From contig CACIRZ010000001.1 of NCBI GenBank assembly GCA_902589185.1, forward strand, positions 1-64,000: a stretch of DNA of 64,000 bases. Direction: 5' to 3'. Under the pieces are notes generated by a model that was given only the letters and a program-made list of their open reading frames with translations, did not search any database and was not told the DNA's origin. The stretch comes from an uncultured SAR116 cluster alpha proteobacterium (GTDB lineage Bacteria > Pseudomonadota > Alphaproteobacteria > Puniceispirillales > Marisalimonadaceae). Positions 10,245 to 43,859 of this stretch are shown one piece after another. The position numbers and the translations under genes were made by a program. Each line of letters starts with the position of its first letter. Positions within the stretch are counted from its first letter, which is position 1.

Positions 10245-10654
10245 GTCAAAGTTAATGTATTAACTAAATTCATTGCTATTGCAGTACAACTTACAGATGA
10301 GCCAATCATGATAGCTCTATCACCCCACTGCATTCCAACGTAAATCCAACCAATACAACTAACCACATACGCTATCTGTCCATAAAGAGTAAAAGAGGCA
10401 CTAATTAGGAATATACCTGCTACAGCTAAAAGCATAGCAATCCATTTTACATACCAATCACGCGTTCCAGTTGGGGTGGTGGGTTTAATTTCATCATACT
10501 CTGTCTGAAGCTCTTCTAGTTCTTGCTTAAGTCTCTTCTTCTCATGAGACAATTCCATTGCCAGCCTTCCAGCTTTTGTCATTGAACTTCCTGTAAGAGT
10601 AGTATTAGTCTCATTAGCTTGATCAGAAATTACAGTAATATTTTTATCTTCCAT
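10241..10654 (-). CDS. Membrane protein with N-terminal coiled coil
   Basis: 137 residues. The first 25 are polar and Thr/Asn-rich. Residues about 33-55 form a charged coiled coil ('SHEKKRLKQELEELQTEYDE'). After a Pro/Thr linker come 'DWYVKWIAM' and three hydrophobic helices to the C-terminus. The GC content seems slightly higher than in nearby small genes. I do not recognise a named family. It ends against the 67-aa gene with a 4-base convergent overlap. Confidence 0.7.
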   Translation of the reverse strand: MEDKNITVISDQANETNTTLTGSSMTKAGRLAMELSHEKKRLKQELEELQTEYDEIKPTTPTGTRDWYVKWIAMLLAVAGIFLISASFTLYGQIAYVVSCIGWIYVGMQWGDRAIMIGSSVSCTAIAMNLVNTLTLT

Positions 10655-35566: not shown

Positions 35567-36424
35567 TTATAACTTTGGTGCTGCAATCACTGGGTTTTTT
35601 AAGACTCCTAATAACCCGATATCAACTTCAACAATATCCCCTGGAACCATATATACAGGTGGATTCCTTTTATCTCCAACACCACCAGGAGTGCCTGTTA
35701 CAATCACGTCTCCAGATGATAATGCAGTAAATTCTGAAATATAACTAATTAATCTTGGAATTGGAAAAATAAGATCAGCTAATGTAGCTTTCTGCATTAT
35801 ATTTCCATTTAATCTTAATTCAATTGGTAGCTTTCTATAATCACCCACTTCACTTGGTGTAACTAAAAAAGGTCCAAATCCGCCTGTACCTGGAAAAGTT
35901 TTTCCTGGGGTAAATTGAGAAGTGTGTCTTTGATAGTTTCTTACACTTCCATCATTATAACATGTATAACCAGCAATATGATCTAGTGCCTCTTCTTCAG
36001 ATATAAACCTACCACCTTTACCTATAACGATTGCCATTTCAGCTTCATAATCAAAACGGTCAGAATTGTCGGGTTTGATTAAAGGTTGCAAGTGAGCAAC
36101 TTGAGAGTCCGCAAACCTTGTGAAAATTGTTGGGTTATCAACATCAGGTCTCCCAGTTTCTTTTTTATGTTCTAAATAATTTAACCCAATGCACATAATT
36201 TTTTCTGGATTTGGAATTACAGGTAAAAAAGTAAAATCTGAAAAAGATAAATCTTTTGTTTTACCTGCAATATACTCTTCTGCTTCATTTTCCATATTAA
36301 GTGAGATTAATTCTTTAATAGAATTAATTTCTGGATCTAATTTGCCAGTAAGATCAACAATTCCATCTTTTACAACTGCTCCAAAACCTGTTTTTCCTAA
36401 TCTAGTAAAACTTAGTAATTTCAT
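35567..36424 (-). CDS. Fumarylacetoacetate hydrolase family enzyme
   Basis: The start is set at 36424, where 'AGAGAGGA' precedes ATG and the product begins MKLLSFTRLG; the tracked start would lie inside the upstream VOC gene. 285 residues. The FAH core shows 'MCIGLNYLEHKKETG', metal ligands in 'DYEAEMAIVIGK' and 'CYNDGSVRNYQ', and 'GDVIVTGTPGGVG'. Members hydrolyse acylpyruvates or hydrate 2-hydroxypenta-2,4-dienoates, both products of aromatic ring cleavage. Last catabolic gene of the five-gene leftward operon. Confidence 0.9.
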   Translation of the reverse strand: MKLLSFTRLGKTGFGAVVKDGIVDLTGKLDPEINSIKELISLNMENEAEEYIAGKTKDLSFSDFTFLPVIPNPEKIMCIGLNYLEHKKETGRPDVDNPTIFTRFADSQVAHLQPLIKPDNSDRFDYEAEMAIVIGKGGRFISEEEALDHIAGYTCYNDGSVRNYQRHTSQFTPGKTFPGTGGFGPFLVTPSEVGDYRKLPIELRLNGNIMQKATLADLIFPIPRLISYISEFTALSSGDVIVTGTPGGVGDKRNPPVYMVPGDIVEVDIGLLGVLKNPVIAAPKL

Positions 36425-36437
36425 TTTATTTCCTCTC

Positions 36438-37280
36438 TTAAGATCTCCTAATTGCTTTTCCCCATAAATTGAGGGTTCTTTCTTCTTGAGGCCAGTTCTT
36501 TGGCGGTCGACCAATTACCGTTTCCAATTCAGCTGATATTTCTATCCAATTTCCATCAATATCTTCGATAAATACGAATAAATTATTTCCTGGACCATGT
36601 CTACCAGGACCCCACATCAATTTTACATTATTTTGAGCAAAATGATCACACCATGTTTTTATATTATTCCATTCACCAGCTTCATATGAGTGATGATCCA
36701 TTCCATTTTGTGATGATTTAAAACACGCAATTGTGTGATGTTCGTGATTAGATGTTGTAAAACAAGTTGCAAGTTCACCAGTGCTTTTTATTACTCTGTC
36801 GGTTACTTGAAACCCAAGTTTTCTTTGATAGAAGTTTTGAAACCTTTCAACGTCTTTAGATGCAAAAGTTAGATGCTGTAATGGTGCATGAATACTTTTA
36901 GTGTAAAAATTATTTTCTTTTTTTTGAACACCAAGACAAATCATATTATTATCAGGATCTTGCAATGAAAAAGATCCTGATTGATAAAATTCTGAAACAA
37001 AGTCATTGATTTCACATTTATTTATTTTTAAAAATTCTTTATACCTCTCTAAATTTTCTTCATTTTTACAAACCATTCCTGCATAGCCGAGTGTATTGTT
37101 TTTCCCTGTTTTTATTATTATTTTACGACCAGGTCCCTCACACAAAAACTTTTGATTTGTCAGCCTATTTATCTTCATATCCATTACATTTGAATAAAAT
37201 TCAGCTAATCTTTTTGGATCACGACTTTCAATTTCAAGATGATTTAATGAAATATTAGCTTGAACAGCATCTAGGGACAT
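36438..37280 (-). CDS. VOC protein, possible second extradiol dioxygenase
   Basis: 280 residues forming two vicinal-oxygen-chelate modules. The second module has a His in 'LQHLTFASKDVERF' near 139, another in 'GMDHHSYEAGEW' near 205, and a Glu in 'DGNWIEISAELE'. This is the His-His-Glu iron or manganese set of type I extradiol dioxygenases. It is four bases downstream of the IclR gene. It may cleave a second ring substrate or act as an isomerase; the sequence does not decide. Confidence 0.82.
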   Translation of the reverse strand: MSLDAVQANISLNHLEIESRDPKRLAEFYSNVMDMKINRLTNQKFLCEGPGRKIIIKTGKNNTLGYAGMVCKNEENLERYKEFLKINKCEINDFVSEFYQSGSFSLQDPDNNMICLGVQKKENNFYTKSIHAPLQHLTFASKDVERFQNFYQRKLGFQVTDRVIKSTGELATCFTTSNHEHHTIACFKSSQNGMDHHSYEAGEWNNIKTWCDHFAQNNVKLMWGPGRHGPGNNLFVFIEDIDGNWIEISAELETVIGRPPKNWPQEERTLNLWGKAIRRS

Positions 37281-37284
37281 TTAT

Positions 37285-38067
37285 TTACCTCATTGAATTT
37301 GTTTCATGATGATACTTTTGAATATCGTCAAAAATTTCATTAATATATTTTTCTACTAATAAACCGTAAGTCGTAAGATTAGCATAAATTATAGGCTCAT
37401 GCTCTAAAAGAAAATCATCTAAATTAAATATTGAACTTAGAGACGCTACAATGCCCAATTTTTTATTACTGATTGAAACTGCAAAACCAATGAGACCTTT
37501 ATCTACTTGACCTTCTGTAAAACAATATCCTTTTTTTCTGTCATTTTTTAACTCTTTCAAAAAATTAGTTTTATCTTCATCTGATTTAAAATTTTCTAAA
37601 TTAATTAAATTTTCTAATCTTTTGCCTGTAATTTGCATAATTATTGCCCTGGAAGTTGCACCGTATATTAAAGGCATCAATTTACCTCTTTGATAACTTG
37701 TATTTTTTTTAAAAGTTGGACTTTTGTAATCAGCAACACACATCACATTATTTCCGTAGAGTCTTGCTAAAACGTTAACACTTGTTATAGGATTTTCATT
37801 AGCTAGTTTTTTTAAAAATGGTTGTCCTGCTCTAACCAAAGGATCAGAAAAATTAATAATTCTATTAAATTTAATGAATGCCGGACCCAATCTAAAATAA
37901 GATCCTGAAGCACTTTCAAGAAATTCTGCTGTGACCATTTCTCGCACAATTCTATATATTGTACTAGATGGTGTTTTAAGTGATTTTGAAATTTCCAAGA
38001 CAGTCCAAAAACTTCTCTCTTCAGAGAAAAGATCTAAGATTTTTTTATACCTTTGAAAACCAGACAC
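37285..38067 (-). CDS. IclR family transcriptional regulator
   Basis: 260 residues. An N-terminal winged helix ('VLEISKSLKTPSSTIYRIVREMV', near 22-44) is followed by the C-terminal ligand-binding domain ('GATSRAIIMQ', 'GYCFTEGQVDKGLIGFAVSI'). IclR proteins commonly control aromatic catabolism with a pathway compound as effector. The gene lies inside the operon it likely controls, 9 bases after the hydroxylase gene, and the palindrome at 40585 is its likely operator (inference). Confidence 0.92.
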   Translation of the reverse strand: MSGFQRYKKILDLFSEERSFWTVLEISKSLKTPSSTIYRIVREMVTAEFLESASGSYFRLGPAFIKFNRIINFSDPLVRAGQPFLKKLANENPITSVNVLARLYGNNVMCVADYKSPTFKKNTSYQRGKLMPLIYGATSRAIIMQITGKRLENLINLENFKSDEDKTNFLKELKNDRKKGYCFTEGQVDKGLIGFAVSISNKKLGIVASLSSIFNLDDFLLEHEPIIYANLTTYGLLVEKYINEIFDDIQKYHHETNSMR

Positions 38068-38075
38068 CTTTATCC

Positions 38076-39542
38076 CTATGAAGAAAAAATTTGATTGAGA
38101 TAAAAGCGAGAAAAATCTTTTAAGTCATTTTTATCTGTACTAGCAAGAACAAACCGATCAGGTCGAATAATTAAGCTATTTGAATTAAATTTTTTTAAAA
38201 TTATTTCTATTTCCGGTATATCAATTGTACTGTAAGTTCTAATTTTTAATTTATTTTCACTTACCTCCTTATTTGTAATTAAGATTGGATGACATGAAAA
38301 TAAATCATCAAATTCTTTATTAAAATTAATTTTTAGATATGGAACAATTTTACCTCTATTTTTATCATCCTTATTACCTAATCCTTTTCCAAGTTTCGGC
38401 TTTATACTATTCATTTTTATTGTGCCGTCTTTTTCCTCATAAACAGTGTCTGACACCTTTGATCCACCAATTGAATTAAGTAGCTCACCCATCTTCATGG
38501 CAGTATTTATATAATCTTTCACATTTGAAGATCTCTCACTTTGATAAGTATCAAGTAATTTTTCATTATGACCTTTTTTACAACATATGTTAATTTTCCA
38601 AGCTAAATTAGATGCATCTCTAATTCCAGCACACATTCCTTGCCCCATAAATGGCGGTGTCAAATGAGCAGCATCTCCAACTAAAAATTGACGACCTATT
38701 CTCCATTTTTTTGCAATTGCTGATTGAAATGTATAGACAGTTTTTCTTTCAATCCTTGCTTCATCCTGAGACACCCATTGACTTAAAAATTTCCAAAGTG
38801 TTTTACTATCAAAAAAATTTTCTACACTTTCTTCTTCTTTTAGAGCTATTTCCCATCTTCTTCTTTTTCCTACATTTCTGCAGTATGTGGCTGGTCTTTT
38901 TGAGTTGCAATATTGTATTGTTCTATCTGGCAAATTTGTTTTTTTTGTTTTTAAAATTAAATCTATTACAGCCCAACGTTGTTCGAAACCTAGATGTTCC
39001 ATTTCACTTTTAATTTGCTTCCTTAGAAAAGAGTTAGCACCATCACAGCCAATTACATATTTAGACTTTACAGAAAAAATCTGTTTGGTTTTTAAATTTT
39101 TGTATTGAATTATTGAATAATTTTTATGACTGATAGTTTTATATACTTCAGAGTTTTGGGAAATAATTACCTTTTCAAATTTTTTTAATTTATGACGTAG
39201 GCTTCTTTCTAAATCAGGTTGATGAAACCTATAACTAGGATACCATCCATTTTCTGTAATAACTTTTGGTCTTGGCCAATCAAGAAGAAGGTTACCTTTT
39301 TCATCAACAAATTTTGTTCCTTTATTAATAATTAATTTTTTTGTTAAACTTTTAGTTATCCCAATTGTATTAAATACTCTCATAACTTCATCATCAAAAT
39401 GAACTGCTCGTGGAAGATTATATATACTTGCTTCTTTTTCTAAAACTAGAATAGATAAATTGTTCATAGCTAAAAGATTAGCTAATGTACCTCCTGCAGG
39501 ACCTAATCCAATTATAACAACATCAAAATCTTGAGTACTCAT
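38076..39542 (-). CDS. FAD-dependent aromatic hydroxylase (MhpA-like)
   Basis: 488 residues, group A flavin monooxygenase. The FAD Rossmann motif is 'IIGLGPAGGTLANLLA' at 10-25, 'VIGCDGANSFLRKQI' is the DG motif, and 'FLVGDAAHLTPPFMGQGMCAGIRDASNLAWK' the GD motif, as in 3-(3-hydroxyphenyl)propionate hydroxylase. It is shorter than MhpA (about 550). The gene overlaps the upstream extradiol dioxygenase by ATGA, showing tight coupling. It likely makes the catechol-type substrate for that enzyme. Confidence 0.9.
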   Translation of the reverse strand: MSTQDFDVVIIGLGPAGGTLANLLAMNNLSILVLEKEASIYNLPRAVHFDDEVMRVFNTIGITKSLTKKLIINKGTKFVDEKGNLLLDWPRPKVITENGWYPSYRFHQPDLERSLRHKLKKFEKVIISQNSEVYKTISHKNYSIIQYKNLKTKQIFSVKSKYVIGCDGANSFLRKQIKSEMEHLGFEQRWAVIDLILKTKKTNLPDRTIQYCNSKRPATYCRNVGKRRRWEIALKEEESVENFFDSKTLWKFLSQWVSQDEARIERKTVYTFQSAIAKKWRIGRQFLVGDAAHLTPPFMGQGMCAGIRDASNLAWKINICCKKGHNEKLLDTYQSERSSNVKDYINTAMKMGELLNSIGGSKVSDTVYEEKDGTIKMNSIKPKLGKGLGNKDDKNRGKIVPYLKINFNKEFDDLFSCHPILITNKEVSENKLKIRTYSTIDIPEIEIILKKFNSNSLIIRPDRFVLASTDKNDLKDFSRFYLNQIFSS

Positions 39543-40513
39543 TTTTTACTGATATTTTGATACAACCACGGACAATCAATTATCATAGGTGATCTTTTAC
39601 CTTGCTGAGCAGTTTCAATACGTTTTATTCTAAACTTTAATCTTTCATCATCAGGTAAATATAATCTTTCATGCCCCCAAAAACTTGGACCTTCGTTTGT
39701 TTCATGAGGAACCCATGTAGTAGGATTGATAATTCTACCACCCCATCCATTTTCAATAAAAAAACCTGAAGGAGTGTGTGCATAAAAAGAAGTCATATAA
39801 TCGTTTGTGTGTCGACCCAAAGTGTAAGCTATTCCATTTTTATGGTTATATTGGAGTAAATCATATCCTTGCCCAACATCATCTAAGTTTTTATATTCTA
39901 CCATAAAATGATGAAATCCTTGTTGACCACTTCCAATTAGAGCGAAGCTATGATGGCGACCATTAACATGAAAAAAACATAATGAAATTGGATCAAAACT
40001 ATAATCACTTATTTTGAAATCTAAAATATCTCTGTAAAAAGGAATTAACATATCAACATTAGATACATGTAAAACTGCATGACCAAGTCCACAAACGTCA
40101 GTCTTAAATCCAGAAATTGGTCTTCCCGGGACAAATGGGCTATTATCAATATGAGGCCTATAAACAAGTTCAATTCTATTTCCTAACGGATCATCAAAAT
40201 ATATTAATTCATCAACAAACCGCATATCAGTAAGATTTTTATCACCTTCGAAAACTTCTATTCCAGTGTCTTCCAACTTTTTGGCATATTTTTGAAGATC
40301 TGATTTTTCTTCTACTTCCCACCCAAGGAAAGCAAGTTTGTCACCAGGTTCACCAGAGATTGTGAATCTTTGTTTTTGATCATCCATACGGAAAAACAAA
40401 GATTTTTTAGAATAATCAGTTTTTTGCATTCCTAGGTTCTTAGTCGCAAAGTCTTGCCACTCTTCGATTTTATCTGAATTAACTCCAATATAACTCAAAG
40501 CATTGATCGACAT
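39539..40513 (-). CDS. Type I extradiol dioxygenase (BphC-like)
   Basis: The start is set at 40513 (MSINALSYIG), with 'AGGAT' upstream. 324 residues in two VOC modules. The metal set is visible: His in 'CGLGHAVLHVSN', His in 'GFHHFMVEY' and Glu in 'GFFIENGWGG', matching BphC His146, His210 and Glu260. 'YAHTPSGF' is another family trait. It would cleave a 2,3-dihydroxylated ring next to the hydroxyls. First gene of the leftward operon, divergent from TRAP system 2. Confidence 0.92.
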   Translation of the reverse strand: MSINALSYIGVNSDKIEEWQDFATKNLGMQKTDYSKKSLFFRMDDQKQRFTISGEPGDKLAFLGWEVEEKSDLQKYAKKLEDTGIEVFEGDKNLTDMRFVDELIYFDDPLGNRIELVYRPHIDNSPFVPGRPISGFKTDVCGLGHAVLHVSNVDMLIPFYRDILDFKISDYSFDPISLCFFHVNGRHHSFALIGSGQQGFHHFMVEYKNLDDVGQGYDLLQYNHKNGIAYTLGRHTNDYMTSFYAHTPSGFFIENGWGGRIINPTTWVPHETNEGPSFWGHERLYLPDDERLKFRIKRIETAQQGKRSPMIIDCPWLYQNISKK

Positions 40514-40568
40514 AAAATAAATCCTAATTAGAGACTTATTAAATAATATATCATTTTGATAAAAAAAC

Positions 40569-40623
40569 AATAATTTTTTAAAAGAATTATCATATTATGA
40601 TAATTAGTAATAATTTTTTAAAA
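40569..40623. repeat. Paired 15-bp direct repeats around the operator palindrome
   Basis: The sequence AATAATTTTTTAAAA occurs at 40569-40583 and again at 40609-40623, exactly 40 bases apart, about four helical turns, on either side of the palindrome at 40585-40605. A-tract repeats at this spacing could bend DNA or bind regulator dimers. Confidence 0.5.
40585..40605. promoter_or_regulatory. 21-bp palindromic operator candidate
   Basis: AATTATCATA and TATGATAATT are perfect inverted 10-mers around one central base. The site lies in the 197-base divergent space between the dioxygenase start (40513) and the TRAP binding-protein start (40711). Its size and position suit an IclR dimer or tetramer site. 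The tracked ATG at 40597 falls within it and is not used. Confidence 0.6.
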
Positions 40624-40710
40624 TTAGAATTTGATTTATATAAATATCTAGTTAATGATTTAATATTACATAAATTAAAATTATTTAAAATTTTATATGG
40701 AGGAATATTA

Positions 40711-41745
40711 ATGAATAAATTGATTGGCGTAGTAGCGACAACAATTATCAGCGCTGGATTATCATTTTCAGCACTAGCTGATAAAGTTACTTTAAAATTT
40801 CACACTATGGTCCCAATGCCAGCAAATTCAAATGCTAAATTTGTTAAACCATGGGCTGACAAAGTAAAAAAAGAAAGTAATGGAGAAATTATTACTGAAA
40901 TGTATCCTTCAATGCAGCTTGGAGGGAAACCACCACAGCTAGTTGATCAAGCTCGTGAAGGTGTTGTAGATATTGTTTGGACTGTTGCAGGTTATACTCC
41001 TGGAAGATTTCCAAGGTTATCAGTTTTTGAATTACCTTTCATGCCAACAAGCGCAAAAATCACAGCCCAAGCTGTTCAAGAATTTGTAGAAACCTCAGGT
41101 GCAGAAGATCTTAAGGATTATAAAATTCTTGCAGTTCACGTTCATGCCCCAGGTATGATACACACTAAAAAAACATTGATTAAATCAGTAAGCGATTTTA
41201 AAGGTCTTAAGCTACGAGGTCCAACTCGTTCAGCAACAAGTTTATTAAAAAAGTTGGGAGCCACTCCTGTTGGTATGCCAATACCAAAAGTTGCTCCTTC
41301 TTTGTCAAAAGGTGTTATAACAGGAATGGTTGTTCCATGGGAGATAATGCCATCTTTTAAACTTCAAGAGTTAACTAAATCACATACCAACGTAGCAGGT
41401 AATAGAGGGCTTTATACAACTCCATTTCTATTTGTCATGAACAAGGCAAAATACGATTCATTATCACCAGCTCATAAAAAAGTTATCGATAATAATTCTG
41501 GAATGTCCCTAGCAAGGCAAGCTGGAGTACTATGGGATGATTTTGAAGGACCTGCTCGTGAATTAGCAGTTAAAGCTGGAGGCGAATTTCATACTTTAAG
41601 TGGAGCACCTCTGGCAGAGATAAAAAAAGCAGCAGATCAAGTTATTCAAGATTGGATAAAAGATGCTAACAGTAAAGGTCTGGATGGACAAAAACTTTAC
41701 GATACTGCGAAATCTCTTATTAAAAAATACGAAAAAAAATTATAA
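40711..41745 (+). CDS. TRAP transporter substrate-binding protein (system 2, DctP)
   Basis: The start is at 40711, preceded by GGAGG and giving a clean signal peptide ('IGVVATTIISAGLSFSALADK'). 344 residues. DctP traits are 'TLKFHTMVPMPANSN', 'SDFKGLKLRGPTRSATSLLKKLGATPVGMPIPKV' with the substrate-binding Arg, and 'LSKGVITGMVVPWE'. Divergence from the aromatic operon across a shared operator suggests an aromatic acid as cargo, as with known TRAP systems for phenylpropanoids. That is inference. Confidence 0.92.
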   Translation: MNKLIGVVATTIISAGLSFSALADKVTLKFHTMVPMPANSNAKFVKPWADKVKKESNGEIITEMYPSMQLGGKPPQLVDQAREGVVDIVWTVAGYTPGRFPRLSVFELPFMPTSAKITAQAVQEFVETSGAEDLKDYKILAVHVHAPGMIHTKKTLIKSVSDFKGLKLRGPTRSATSLLKKLGATPVGMPIPKVAPSLSKGVITGMVVPWEIMPSFKLQELTKSHTNVAGNRGLYTTPFLFVMNKAKYDSLSPAHKKVIDNNSGMSLARQAGVLWDDFEGPARELAVKAGGEFHTLSGAPLAEIKKAADQVIQDWIKDANSKGLDGQKLYDTAKSLIKKYEKKL

Positions 41746-41760
41746 TTCCATTATAATATA

Positions 41761-42291
41761 ATGTTTTTTTGGAAAAAAATTATTTCATCTAAAATACGTC
41801 CAGATAATCAATTTGGACGTATTTTAAATTTTATCTCTAGATATTTTGCAATTTTCGGTGGCTTTATTCTTTTAACAGCTGCTTTAATTAGTATTTTTTC
41901 GATTTTTGGAAGAGTAGTATTCTCATCTCCCATTTTGGGTGACTTTGAACTAGTAGAAATTGCTTGTGCAGTTGCTATTGGATCATTCTTACCATTATGT
42001 CATCTTAAAAATGGAAATGTTATTGTAGATTTCATAACTGCCAAACTTTCCAAAAATAAAATTAATTTATTAGACTCTATTAGTTCTCTAATATTTGGTG
42101 TAGTGGCTCTGTTCTTTACTTCTCGCATGATTTTAGGAGCAAGGGATATGTACGTTTATCAAGAAGAAACTATGCTTTTAGCATTTCCTATTTGGTTACC
42201 TTTTTTACCTGTAATTGCTTCTTTTTTTCTTCTAACAATTTGTTGCCTTTATACATTCATAATTAAAATTAACCTCATAATAGGAAAATAA
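41761..42291 (+). CDS. TRAP small permease subunit DctQ (system 2)
   Basis: 176 residues with four hydrophobic helices (about 27-50, 60-78, 97-120, 140-165). The family motif region 'FGRVVFSSPILGDFELVEIACAVAIGSFLPLCHLKNGNVIVDFI' is clear. A weak AT-rich hairpin (41740-41756) lies between the binding-protein stop and this ATG. The large subunit begins 4 bases after the stop. Confidence 0.9.
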   Translation: MFFWKKIISSKIRPDNQFGRILNFISRYFAIFGGFILLTAALISIFSIFGRVVFSSPILGDFELVEIACAVAIGSFLPLCHLKNGNVIVDFITAKLSKNKINLLDSISSLIFGVVALFFTSRMILGARDMYVYQEETMLLAFPIWLPFLPVIASFFLLTICCLYTFIIKINLIIGK

Positions 42292-42295
42292 TTTT

Positions 42296-43612
42296 ATGGA
42301 TAAATTTACATTAGGCATTATTGCTTTTCCTATTTTATTTTCTATGCTTGCACTAAGAATGCCAATCGGTTTAGCTATGCTAATAGTTGGTTGTTCAGGT
42401 ACTATTATAATAGCTGGATGGCTTCCAATTTTATCTCAAGTTAAAACTAGCGCATGGCATTTATTTTCTAATTATTCTTTATCTGTCATTCCACTATTTT
42501 TATTAATGGGAAATTTTGCTGGTAAAGCTGGTATGAGTGAAGCACTTTTTAAATTTACTGGGGCTTGTCTAGGCCATAGAAAAGGTGGAGTTGCAATGGC
42601 AGCAATTGGTGCTTGTGCAGGATTTGGAGCTATTTGTGGATCATCACTAGCAACAGCCGCTACAATGGGTAAAGTTGCACTTCCTGAACTAAGACGATTA
42701 GGATATTCTGGAGCTCTAAGCACAGGAACTCTAGCTGCTGGTGGAACTTTAGGGATATTAATTCCACCATCAGTTATATTAATAATCTATTCAATTTTAA
42801 CAGAACAAAATATTGCCAAAATGTTTTTAGCTGCCTTCATTCCTGGTATTCTCGCTGCTTTGGGATACATACTTGCAATCGCATTATATGTTAGATTTGT
42901 AAAGGAATCTGGACCAACCAAAGAAAGGGTTGGGTGGAAAGAGAGATTTTCTTTATTTAAGGATATATGGCAGATAATTCTAATTTTTTTAGTGATGATA
43001 GGAGGTATTTATTTAGGTTGGTTTACTCCCACAGAAGGTGGTGCTATCGGTGCAGGTGGAGCTGGTCTAATTGCAATTTCTAATAAAAATTTTAAATTTA
43101 AAGACTTGGTTGAAGTAATTGAGAGCACTGCAATTACTTCTGCTATGATATTTTTAGTGCTTTTAGGCGCAGAATTTTTCAACTCATTTATAGCATTAAC
43201 ACAACTTCCAAACCAATTAGGAGAGATTGCATTAAAAAACAATCTCTCACCTTATCTAATTGTAGCATGTATTCTTGTTTTATATCTGTTATTGGGCTGT
43301 TTGATGGATAGCTTGGCAATGATTTTACTTACAATACCAGTTTTCTTTCCTTTGATAATGACATTGGATTTTGGGATGTCTGCTGAGGAAACTGCAATAT
43401 GGTTTGGAATATTAACACTTATTGTCGTAGAAGTAGGATTAATTACACCTCCAGTTGGATTAAATGTTTTTATTATTAATAAGATGGCAGGTGATGTAAG
43501 TATTGCTGAAACTTTCAAAGGAGTTTTACCATTTTTATTTAGCGATATTTTAAGAGTAATATTATTGTTTTCATTTCCAGGCATCACATTATTTTTATTA
43601 AAAGTATTTTAA
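42296..43612 (+). CDS. TRAP large permease subunit DctM (system 2)
   Basis: 438 residues with about 12-13 helices. Family blocks include 'LRMPIGLAMLIVGCSGT', 'VIPLFLLMGNFAGKAGMSEALF', 'GSSLATAATMGKVALPELRRLGYSGALSTGTLAAGGTLGILIPPSVILIIY' and 'TEGGAIGAGGAG'. It is the Na+-coupled carrier of system 2. The next small gene starts after a single base, so it is probably translated together. Confidence 0.93.
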   Translation: MDKFTLGIIAFPILFSMLALRMPIGLAMLIVGCSGTIIIAGWLPILSQVKTSAWHLFSNYSLSVIPLFLLMGNFAGKAGMSEALFKFTGACLGHRKGGVAMAAIGACAGFGAICGSSLATAATMGKVALPELRRLGYSGALSTGTLAAGGTLGILIPPSVILIIYSILTEQNIAKMFLAAFIPGILAALGYILAIALYVRFVKESGPTKERVGWKERFSLFKDIWQIILIFLVMIGGIYLGWFTPTEGGAIGAGGAGLIAISNKNFKFKDLVEVIESTAITSAMIFLVLLGAEFFNSFIALTQLPNQLGEIALKNNLSPYLIVACILVLYLLLGCLMDSLAMILLTIPVFFPLIMTLDFGMSAEETAIWFGILTLIVVEVGLITPPVGLNVFIINKMAGDVSIAETFKGVLPFLFSDILRVILLFSFPGITLFLLKVF

Positions 43613-43613
43613 G

Positions 43614-43859
43614 ATGAATCAAGATAACAAAAAATATTTATGGAAGTTAATCCAACTAACTGGAGATAGTTTAATTAATAAATTACCAGATCATCCAAAT
43701 CATCCTAATGGAAGAAACCCCTATGCTCACGTTGCATTAAAAGTAAAAAACAAGTTTGGAAAAAGCTATAAAGATCTTCTTGACGAGAAAGTTCATGAGG
43801 TCATTAATTATTTAAATATATTGAAACAAACTGAGGGAGATACAAAAAACTTACATTAA
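43614..43859 (+). CDS. 81-aa soluble protein coupled to TRAP system 2
   Basis: ATG comes one base after the DctM stop, so translation is likely coupled. The protein is charged and helical, with no membrane segment or signal peptide, and a central 'DHPNHPNGRNPYAHVALKV' that looks like a conserved turn rich in His, Asn and Pro. No family recognised. It ends the system 2 transcript. A role in the catabolic route rather than in transport is possible. Confidence 0.65.
   Translation: MNQDNKKYLWKLIQLTGDSLINKLPDHPNHPNGRNPYAHVALKVKNKFGKSYKDLLDEKVHEVINYLNILKQTEGDTKNLH

Follow-up and report, generated by a model that had tools for sequence, protein, structure and literature searches.

A 21-bp palindrome between divergent genes for aromatic ring cleavage and TRAP-type uptake in a SAR116-cluster alphaproteobacterium (assembly of 1.47 Mb, 62% complete) is, with high probability, bound by the IclR-family regulator encoded in the ring-cleavage operon itself. 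Comparative data support its assignment as a new operator resembling group 1 of the IclR family, an ordinary switch of a kind already known. The preliminary description of this DNA had proposed that one regulator, probably the IclR of the operon, acts on uptake and ring cleavage together from this palindrome, and four computed lines of evidence support the proposal: the dyad and the IclR gene co-occur; some relatives that retain the divergent gene pair have neither; the dyad recurs in GC-rich rhizobial DNA at promoters beside IclR homologues; and position 40587 ranks first in the window, i.e., in the whole analysed stretch of 64 kb, by a matrix derived from sites outside SAR116. Four points were computed directly: that the dyad exists, that it is conserved, that it follows the IclR gene and that it recurs at homologous operons.

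Genes of the locus

The intergenic gap of 197 bp (40514–40710) extends from the start codon of the dioxygenase gene (40513, minus strand) to that of dctP (40711, plus strand). The ring-cleavage operon on the minus strand begins with a gene for a BphC-like extradiol dioxygenase of the VOC fold (39539–40513), followed by a gene for a FAD monooxygenase of the 3-(3-hydroxyphenyl)propionate hydroxylase subfamily (38076–39542; NF004829, 492 bits against a cut-off of 390) and, as the third gene, by that of the IclR-family regulator, the proposed binder of the palindrome (37285–38067). Gene spacing suggests that these three genes are transcribed as one unit. Genes for a second extradiol dioxygenase-like (VOC) protein (36438–37280) and a protein of the fumarylacetoacetate hydrolase (FAH) family (35567–36514) follow on the same strand. 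The plus strand carries genes for the TRAP transporter solute-binding protein DctP (40711–41745) and the small and large permeases DctQ and DctM (41761–43612). The same gene order is found in relatives of the genus with sufficiently long contigs.

The regulator belongs to the IclR family, as both its N-terminal domain HTH_IclR (Pfam PF09339, 25.8 bits, cut-off 22) and its C-terminal domain IclR_C (Pfam PF01614, 26.7 bits, cut-off 24) exceed the Pfam cut-offs. The nearest named subfamily by profile score is PcaR/PcaU/PobR (TIGR02431), with 60.4 bits, under the curated cut-off of 284.75.

An open reading frame of 81 amino acids located 3' of dctM (43614–43859) had no match in Pfam or NCBIfam; many relatives of the genus share it, as does G041. 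The dctP gene of the very close relative AG-430-M22 (L078, 2031–3063) is split into two overlapping frames, which points to a frameshift or an assembly error. A literature search for a ligand clue, using the PDB codes of the structures nearest to DctP, turned up unrelated work only.

Palindrome, direct repeats and predicted promoters

The preliminary description had reported a 21-bp palindrome in the 197-base space between the dioxygenase and TRAP genes. This was confirmed: the perfect palindrome AATTATCATATTATGATAATT, i.e., AATTATCATA-T-TATGATAATT, occupies positions 40585–40605 and is assigned to neither strand. Its putative functional core, O1, is the 17-bp dyad TTATCA-N5-TGATAA (40587–40603, centre 40595), which precedes both the regulator's own dioxygenase–monooxygenase–IclR operon and the adjacent dctPQM genes. 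A genome search, proposed in the same description, found the copy in the window to be the only exact one in the whole assembly; three further places in the assembly resemble it with 2 or 3 mismatches. Among 2000 dinucleotide shuffles of the gap, 4.2% contain a palindrome with arms of at least 10 bp; in DNA this rich in AT, the palindrome alone is barely out of the ordinary.

Two copies of the 15-bp direct repeat AATAATTTTTTAAAA lie on the plus strand at 40569–40583, overlapping the edge of the predicted −35 element of the dioxygenase promoter, and at 40609–40623. The earlier claim that they frame the palindrome held as far as both copies exist, exactly 40 bp apart; they are not conserved and are not part of the site. 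A direct repeat of at least 15 bp was found in 0.8% of the same shuffles. In every relative the pair is absent as a repeat, the longest repeat in the relatives' gaps being at most 13 bp, and the repeats were accordingly rejected as part of the operator; by this comparison they appear to be lineage-specific noise. Since the shuffles give p of about 0.04 for the palindrome and about 0.008 for the 15-bp repeat, this sequence alone would settle nothing.

The aligned gaps of relatives have three conserved parts: the dyad, a block that precedes dctP, and a promoter predicted on the minus strand. This putative promoter (40543–40570) would serve the ring-cleavage operon; it coincides with conserved alignment columns and consists of a −35 element TTGTTT (40570–40565), a 16-bp spacer and a −10 element TATTAT (40548–40543). 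The aligned sequences in relatives, TTGATA-16-TATAAT in L048 and TTGTTA-16-CATAAT in L051, support this reading, and a simple promoter scan of the window did not list this promoter. A weaker second site, O2 (ATATATCATTTTGATAA, 40546–40562, assigned to neither strand), lies inside the −35/−10 spacer. It matches 9 of the 12 consensus positions with the right half TGATAA intact, may alternatively be read as a short dyad TATCA-N3-TGATA (40549–40561), and is located 41 bp from O1; many of its columns are near-invariant in the alignment of relatives.

The block AGAATTTGATTTATATAAATATCTAGTTAATGATTTA (40625–40662, plus strand) is the most conserved part of the gap, above the palindrome. It is probably the dctP promoter, an uncertain assignment, with candidate hexamers TTGATT (40631–40636) and AATGAT (40654–40659) separated by 17 bp, and extends beyond what promoter hexamers need. 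The part CTAGTTAA of this block was considered as a general element and rejected, as no enrichment was found. O1 lies outside both predicted promoters and upstream of both predicted start sites, by about 59 bp for the dioxygenase and about 71 bp for dctP.

Conservation of the dyad within the genus

The core dyad is present at the aligned place with at least 10 of 12 matching positions in 17 of the 26 IclR-bearing gaps, while shuffled gaps, scored at their best position, average about 8.8 of 12. Matched changes in both arms (TTCTCAT...ATGAGAA) were found in L038 and L039, and one arm of each type, TTATCA-like and TTCTCA-like, in L047 and L049. Centre 40595 ranks second of 359 for dyad symmetry in SAR116, with a complementary fraction of 0.735 against a mean of 0.398. 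Being good and not unique among these centres, SAR116-only symmetry was rejected as proof, so that distant loci were needed.

In the subclade L050–L055 the IclR gene is retained (about 74–79% identical) and the dyad is degenerate; in L035–L037 the dyad is weak or deleted. The subclade, together with these weak sites, is real counter-evidence to an IclR operator. The preliminary description had expected the palindrome in relatives that keep the gene pair; this was borne out for the core in most of those within the genus and not in some relatives, seven of which have no IclR gene.

Association of the dyad with the IclR gene

Within the genus, all 28 genomes that contain this dioxygenase also contain the IclR gene, and the 12 genomes without the dioxygenase all lack it. 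Thirteen genomes of other genera in the family contain the dioxygenase and no IclR at an E-value of 1e-20. Gaps of seven IclR-less relatives that retain the divergent dioxygenase/dctP pair were examined, namely, L087 (G041), L088–L090 (G042, G047 and G045) and L093–L095 (G040, G046 and G050). In all seven operons the monooxygenase gene runs straight into that of the second dioxygenase, and no dyad was found in these seven gaps (best match 7–9 of 12; matrix score at most 2.8 bits). G041, which has neither IclR nor the dyad, and G044, which has both, belong to the same genus. The IclR-less gaps differ throughout, most of the gap being replaced, and loss of the dyad is thus not isolated from promoter turnover. 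Regulation of the IclR-less catabolic operons must differ.

A non-divergent layout was observed in L059–L070, single-cell genomes labelled Pelagibacteraceae with a dioxygenase 66–68% identical: a co-directional dctP-like gene is located about 70 bp upstream of the dioxygenase gene and is preceded, in most of them, by an FAH gene.

Occurrence of the dyad in distant genomes

A search of 385 genomes of the class for IclR at an E-value of 1e-25 returned only the window's own gene, and distant homologues were therefore taken from plasmid records and from the family of L072. They are about 34–50% identical to the regulator, and the dyad is found near them in GC-rich DNA, where it is otherwise rare. 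In L072, a MAG labelled 'Rhizobiaceae group' with a GC content of 57%, the genes for the dioxygenase (62% identical), monooxygenase and IclR (49% identical) are in the same order as in the window, and TTATCATATATTGATAA is located 73–89 bp before the dioxygenase start. The plasmid IclR homologues mostly adjoin genes for VOC dioxygenases, FAH proteins and hydroxylases. In Rhizobium ACO-34A (L119) and Shinella (L121) the dyad precedes genes for a VOC dioxygenase, an aldehyde dehydrogenase and an ABC solute-binding protein; in R. bangladeshense (L120) it is located upstream of the VOC gene and in R. leguminosarum CB782 (L115) upstream of the aldehyde dehydrogenase gene. In rhizobial plasmids it is also present before the regulator genes, and in G562, G613 and G580 it lies within a few kb of the IclR gene. 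The strong site of L119–L121 is centred about 39–41 bp before the dioxygenase ATG. No convincing site was found at L117 and L135, and no second regulator gene recurs across the distant IclR loci.

In whole plasmids, all matches with one mismatch allowed fall within the locus in ACO-34A (4 of 4), R. bangladeshense (1 of 1) and Shinella (2 of 2), as does the single match in G580 (5.6 Mb), while the reversed-pattern control gave none in each of these four. CB782, G562, G613 and G516 have one such match each in the locus and others elsewhere; the locus match of G516 is the sole perfect one. These counts are not independent, as the consensus was already known when the distant sites were chosen, and L119–L121 are closely related. 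The circularity of sites partly found by the motif that they confirm is limited by the whole-record counts and by a matrix test. A matrix built from 12 non-SAR116 sites only ranks position 40587 first in the window with 27.0 bits, the next best scoring 13.2. With the reverse matrix, built from 17 SAR116 sites, the expected promoter sites come out on top in most of the distant loci; this matrix also gave extra weaker sites in Phaeobacter (L116, 7660), before a TRAP binding-protein gene, and in Aminobacter (L122, 9549), before dctP.

Partner sites were scanned at offsets of 18 to 120 bp from 31 primary sites of distant loci. The top offset is 41 bp (mean score 5.19 against 3.79, sd 0.47, z about 3), and among 101 groups of three neighbouring offsets the one centred on 41 scores highest; despite this optimum, partner sites are degenerate or missing at many distant loci. 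The meaningful spacing of about 41 bp thus appears to be that between O1 and O2, the 40-bp spacing of AATAATTTTTTAAAA being a separate, unconserved feature.

Several dyads per promoter, some of them overlapping 8 bp apart, were observed in rhizobial DNA (L119, 2260–2440 and 8538–8630), hinting at binding of several dimers.

Comparison with known regulatory systems

Operators of IclR group 1 are described as GKTYCRYW3-4RYGRAMC with the core YCRY-W3-4-RYGR (Suvorova and Gelfand 2021, PMC8222616). According to the same study, tandem sites are mostly 18–22 bp apart, three- and four-turn spacings being less pronounced, aromatic catabolism is often under IclR control, and DctPQM is one of the transporters in these regulons. 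The site in the window resembles this group in its exact core TCAT-ATT-ATGA (40590–40600), in being an odd-length inverted repeat of 17 bp, in its location upstream of aromatic catabolism and DctPQM genes and in its possible tandem partner; the nearest subgroup is WTT-11-AAW. It differs in the outer boxes, which are TTA...TAA instead of GKT...AMC or TGT/GTT/WTT (A in the third position, not T), and in the partner spacing of about 41 bp instead of the usual 18–22.

With PcaU, PcaR and PobR, regulators of the beta-ketoadipate pathway, the locus shares an inverted repeat near aromatic catabolic genes; however, their half-sites are of the type GTTCGAT/GTCCGAT, not TTATCA, and the window contains extradiol genes of the meta-cleavage type. 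MhpR of E. coli (3-(3-hydroxyphenyl)propionate catabolism), compared by family, cluster and motif, is also an IclR-family regulator, and its cluster likewise combines an MhpA-like hydroxylase with an extradiol dioxygenase, but its motif GGTGCACCTGGTGCACA (PMC8222616) is unlike TTATCA-N5-TGATAA. A literature search for the exact motif and for IclR regulation in SAR116 found nothing relevant.

Proposed regulation and alternative explanations

From these comparisons we infer binding by IclR, its tetrameric state, an inducer and the sign of regulation. An IclR dimer would bind O1 as the main operator, and the second dimer of a tetramer would reach O2, the weaker and half-conserved site, over a distance of 41 bp, about four turns. 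Without an aromatic inducer, the tetramer would most likely cover the predicted dioxygenase promoter and repress ring cleavage and iclR itself; with the inducer present, the complex would change, and the catabolic operon would be expressed along with the divergent dctPQM.

Repression is somewhat preferred over activation because O2 lies in the predicted promoter and the rhizobial sites are located about 40 bp before the ATG. The same operator could also serve an IclR that mainly activates both divergent promoters from O1, with O2 as an auxiliary site or a feature of the promoter spacer; this is a less favoured reading that still deserves serious weight. The distances of O1 from the two predicted starts and its position outside both predicted promoters permit activation, and both activators and dual regulators occur in the IclR family (PMC8222616). 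The nearest named subfamily of the regulator is PcaR/PcaU/PobR. Regulators of the PobR and MhpR type work as activators. Against this, the site position in L119–L121 is more usual for repression, and O2 falls within the −35/−10 spacer.

It is improbable that a regulator encoded elsewhere binds the site and that the link to IclR is coincidental co-inheritance of the cluster. Such dyads are not unique to IclR proteins, and gene and site are inherited together within the SAR116 genus, but the dyad lies beside IclR homologues in other orders despite different gene orders, three whole GC-rich plasmids have no copy within one mismatch outside the locus, no further regulator gene is found repeatedly at the distant loci, and none of the seven IclR-less relatives examined has the dyad. 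Still more improbable is a palindrome that arose by chance in an AT-rich gap: the frequency of palindromes of this length in shuffled gaps (4%) and the unconserved direct repeats would fit it; against it stand the conservation of the dyad, with changes matched between the arms, its absence where IclR is also absent, and its reappearance at distant loci in GC-rich DNA.

Binding of O1 by the operon's own regulator is thus retained as the preferred reading. A wider one is about as likely as not: TTATCA-N5-TGATAA with a weaker partner four helical turns away would form a distinct class of IclR operators (TTA-11-TAA), common to a regulator clade from streamlined ocean SAR116 to soil rhizobia, and a long-range tetramer would govern the uptake of aromatics (TRAP or ABC) jointly with their meta-cleavage. 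The locus provides a concrete candidate operator/regulator pair for the use of aromatic compounds in SAR116, for which most of the genomes here come from single cells, and links it to a clade of regulators in soil rhizobia, where the same site lets regulons be drawn. A promoter element from raw sequence may accordingly be matched with its regulator from nothing more than gene loss and recurrence in distant genomes.

A genome-wide search with the 17-bp pattern was rejected as a way of defining the SAR116 regulon, being unspecific: with one mismatch allowed, it gave 34–73 matches per genome in SAR116 and sister genomes. A copy of the palindrome with two mismatches, AATAATCAAACTATGATAATT, is located in contig C2 of G000 (10394–10414; L002, 1501–1521), about 60–80 bp before a gene for a methylmalonyl-CoA epimerase-like protein. 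Its dyad TAATCA-N5-TGATAA is retained in near relatives and is degraded in those further away, among them G001 and G022, where the window dyad decays too; the epimerase-like gene is a possible second target of the regulator.
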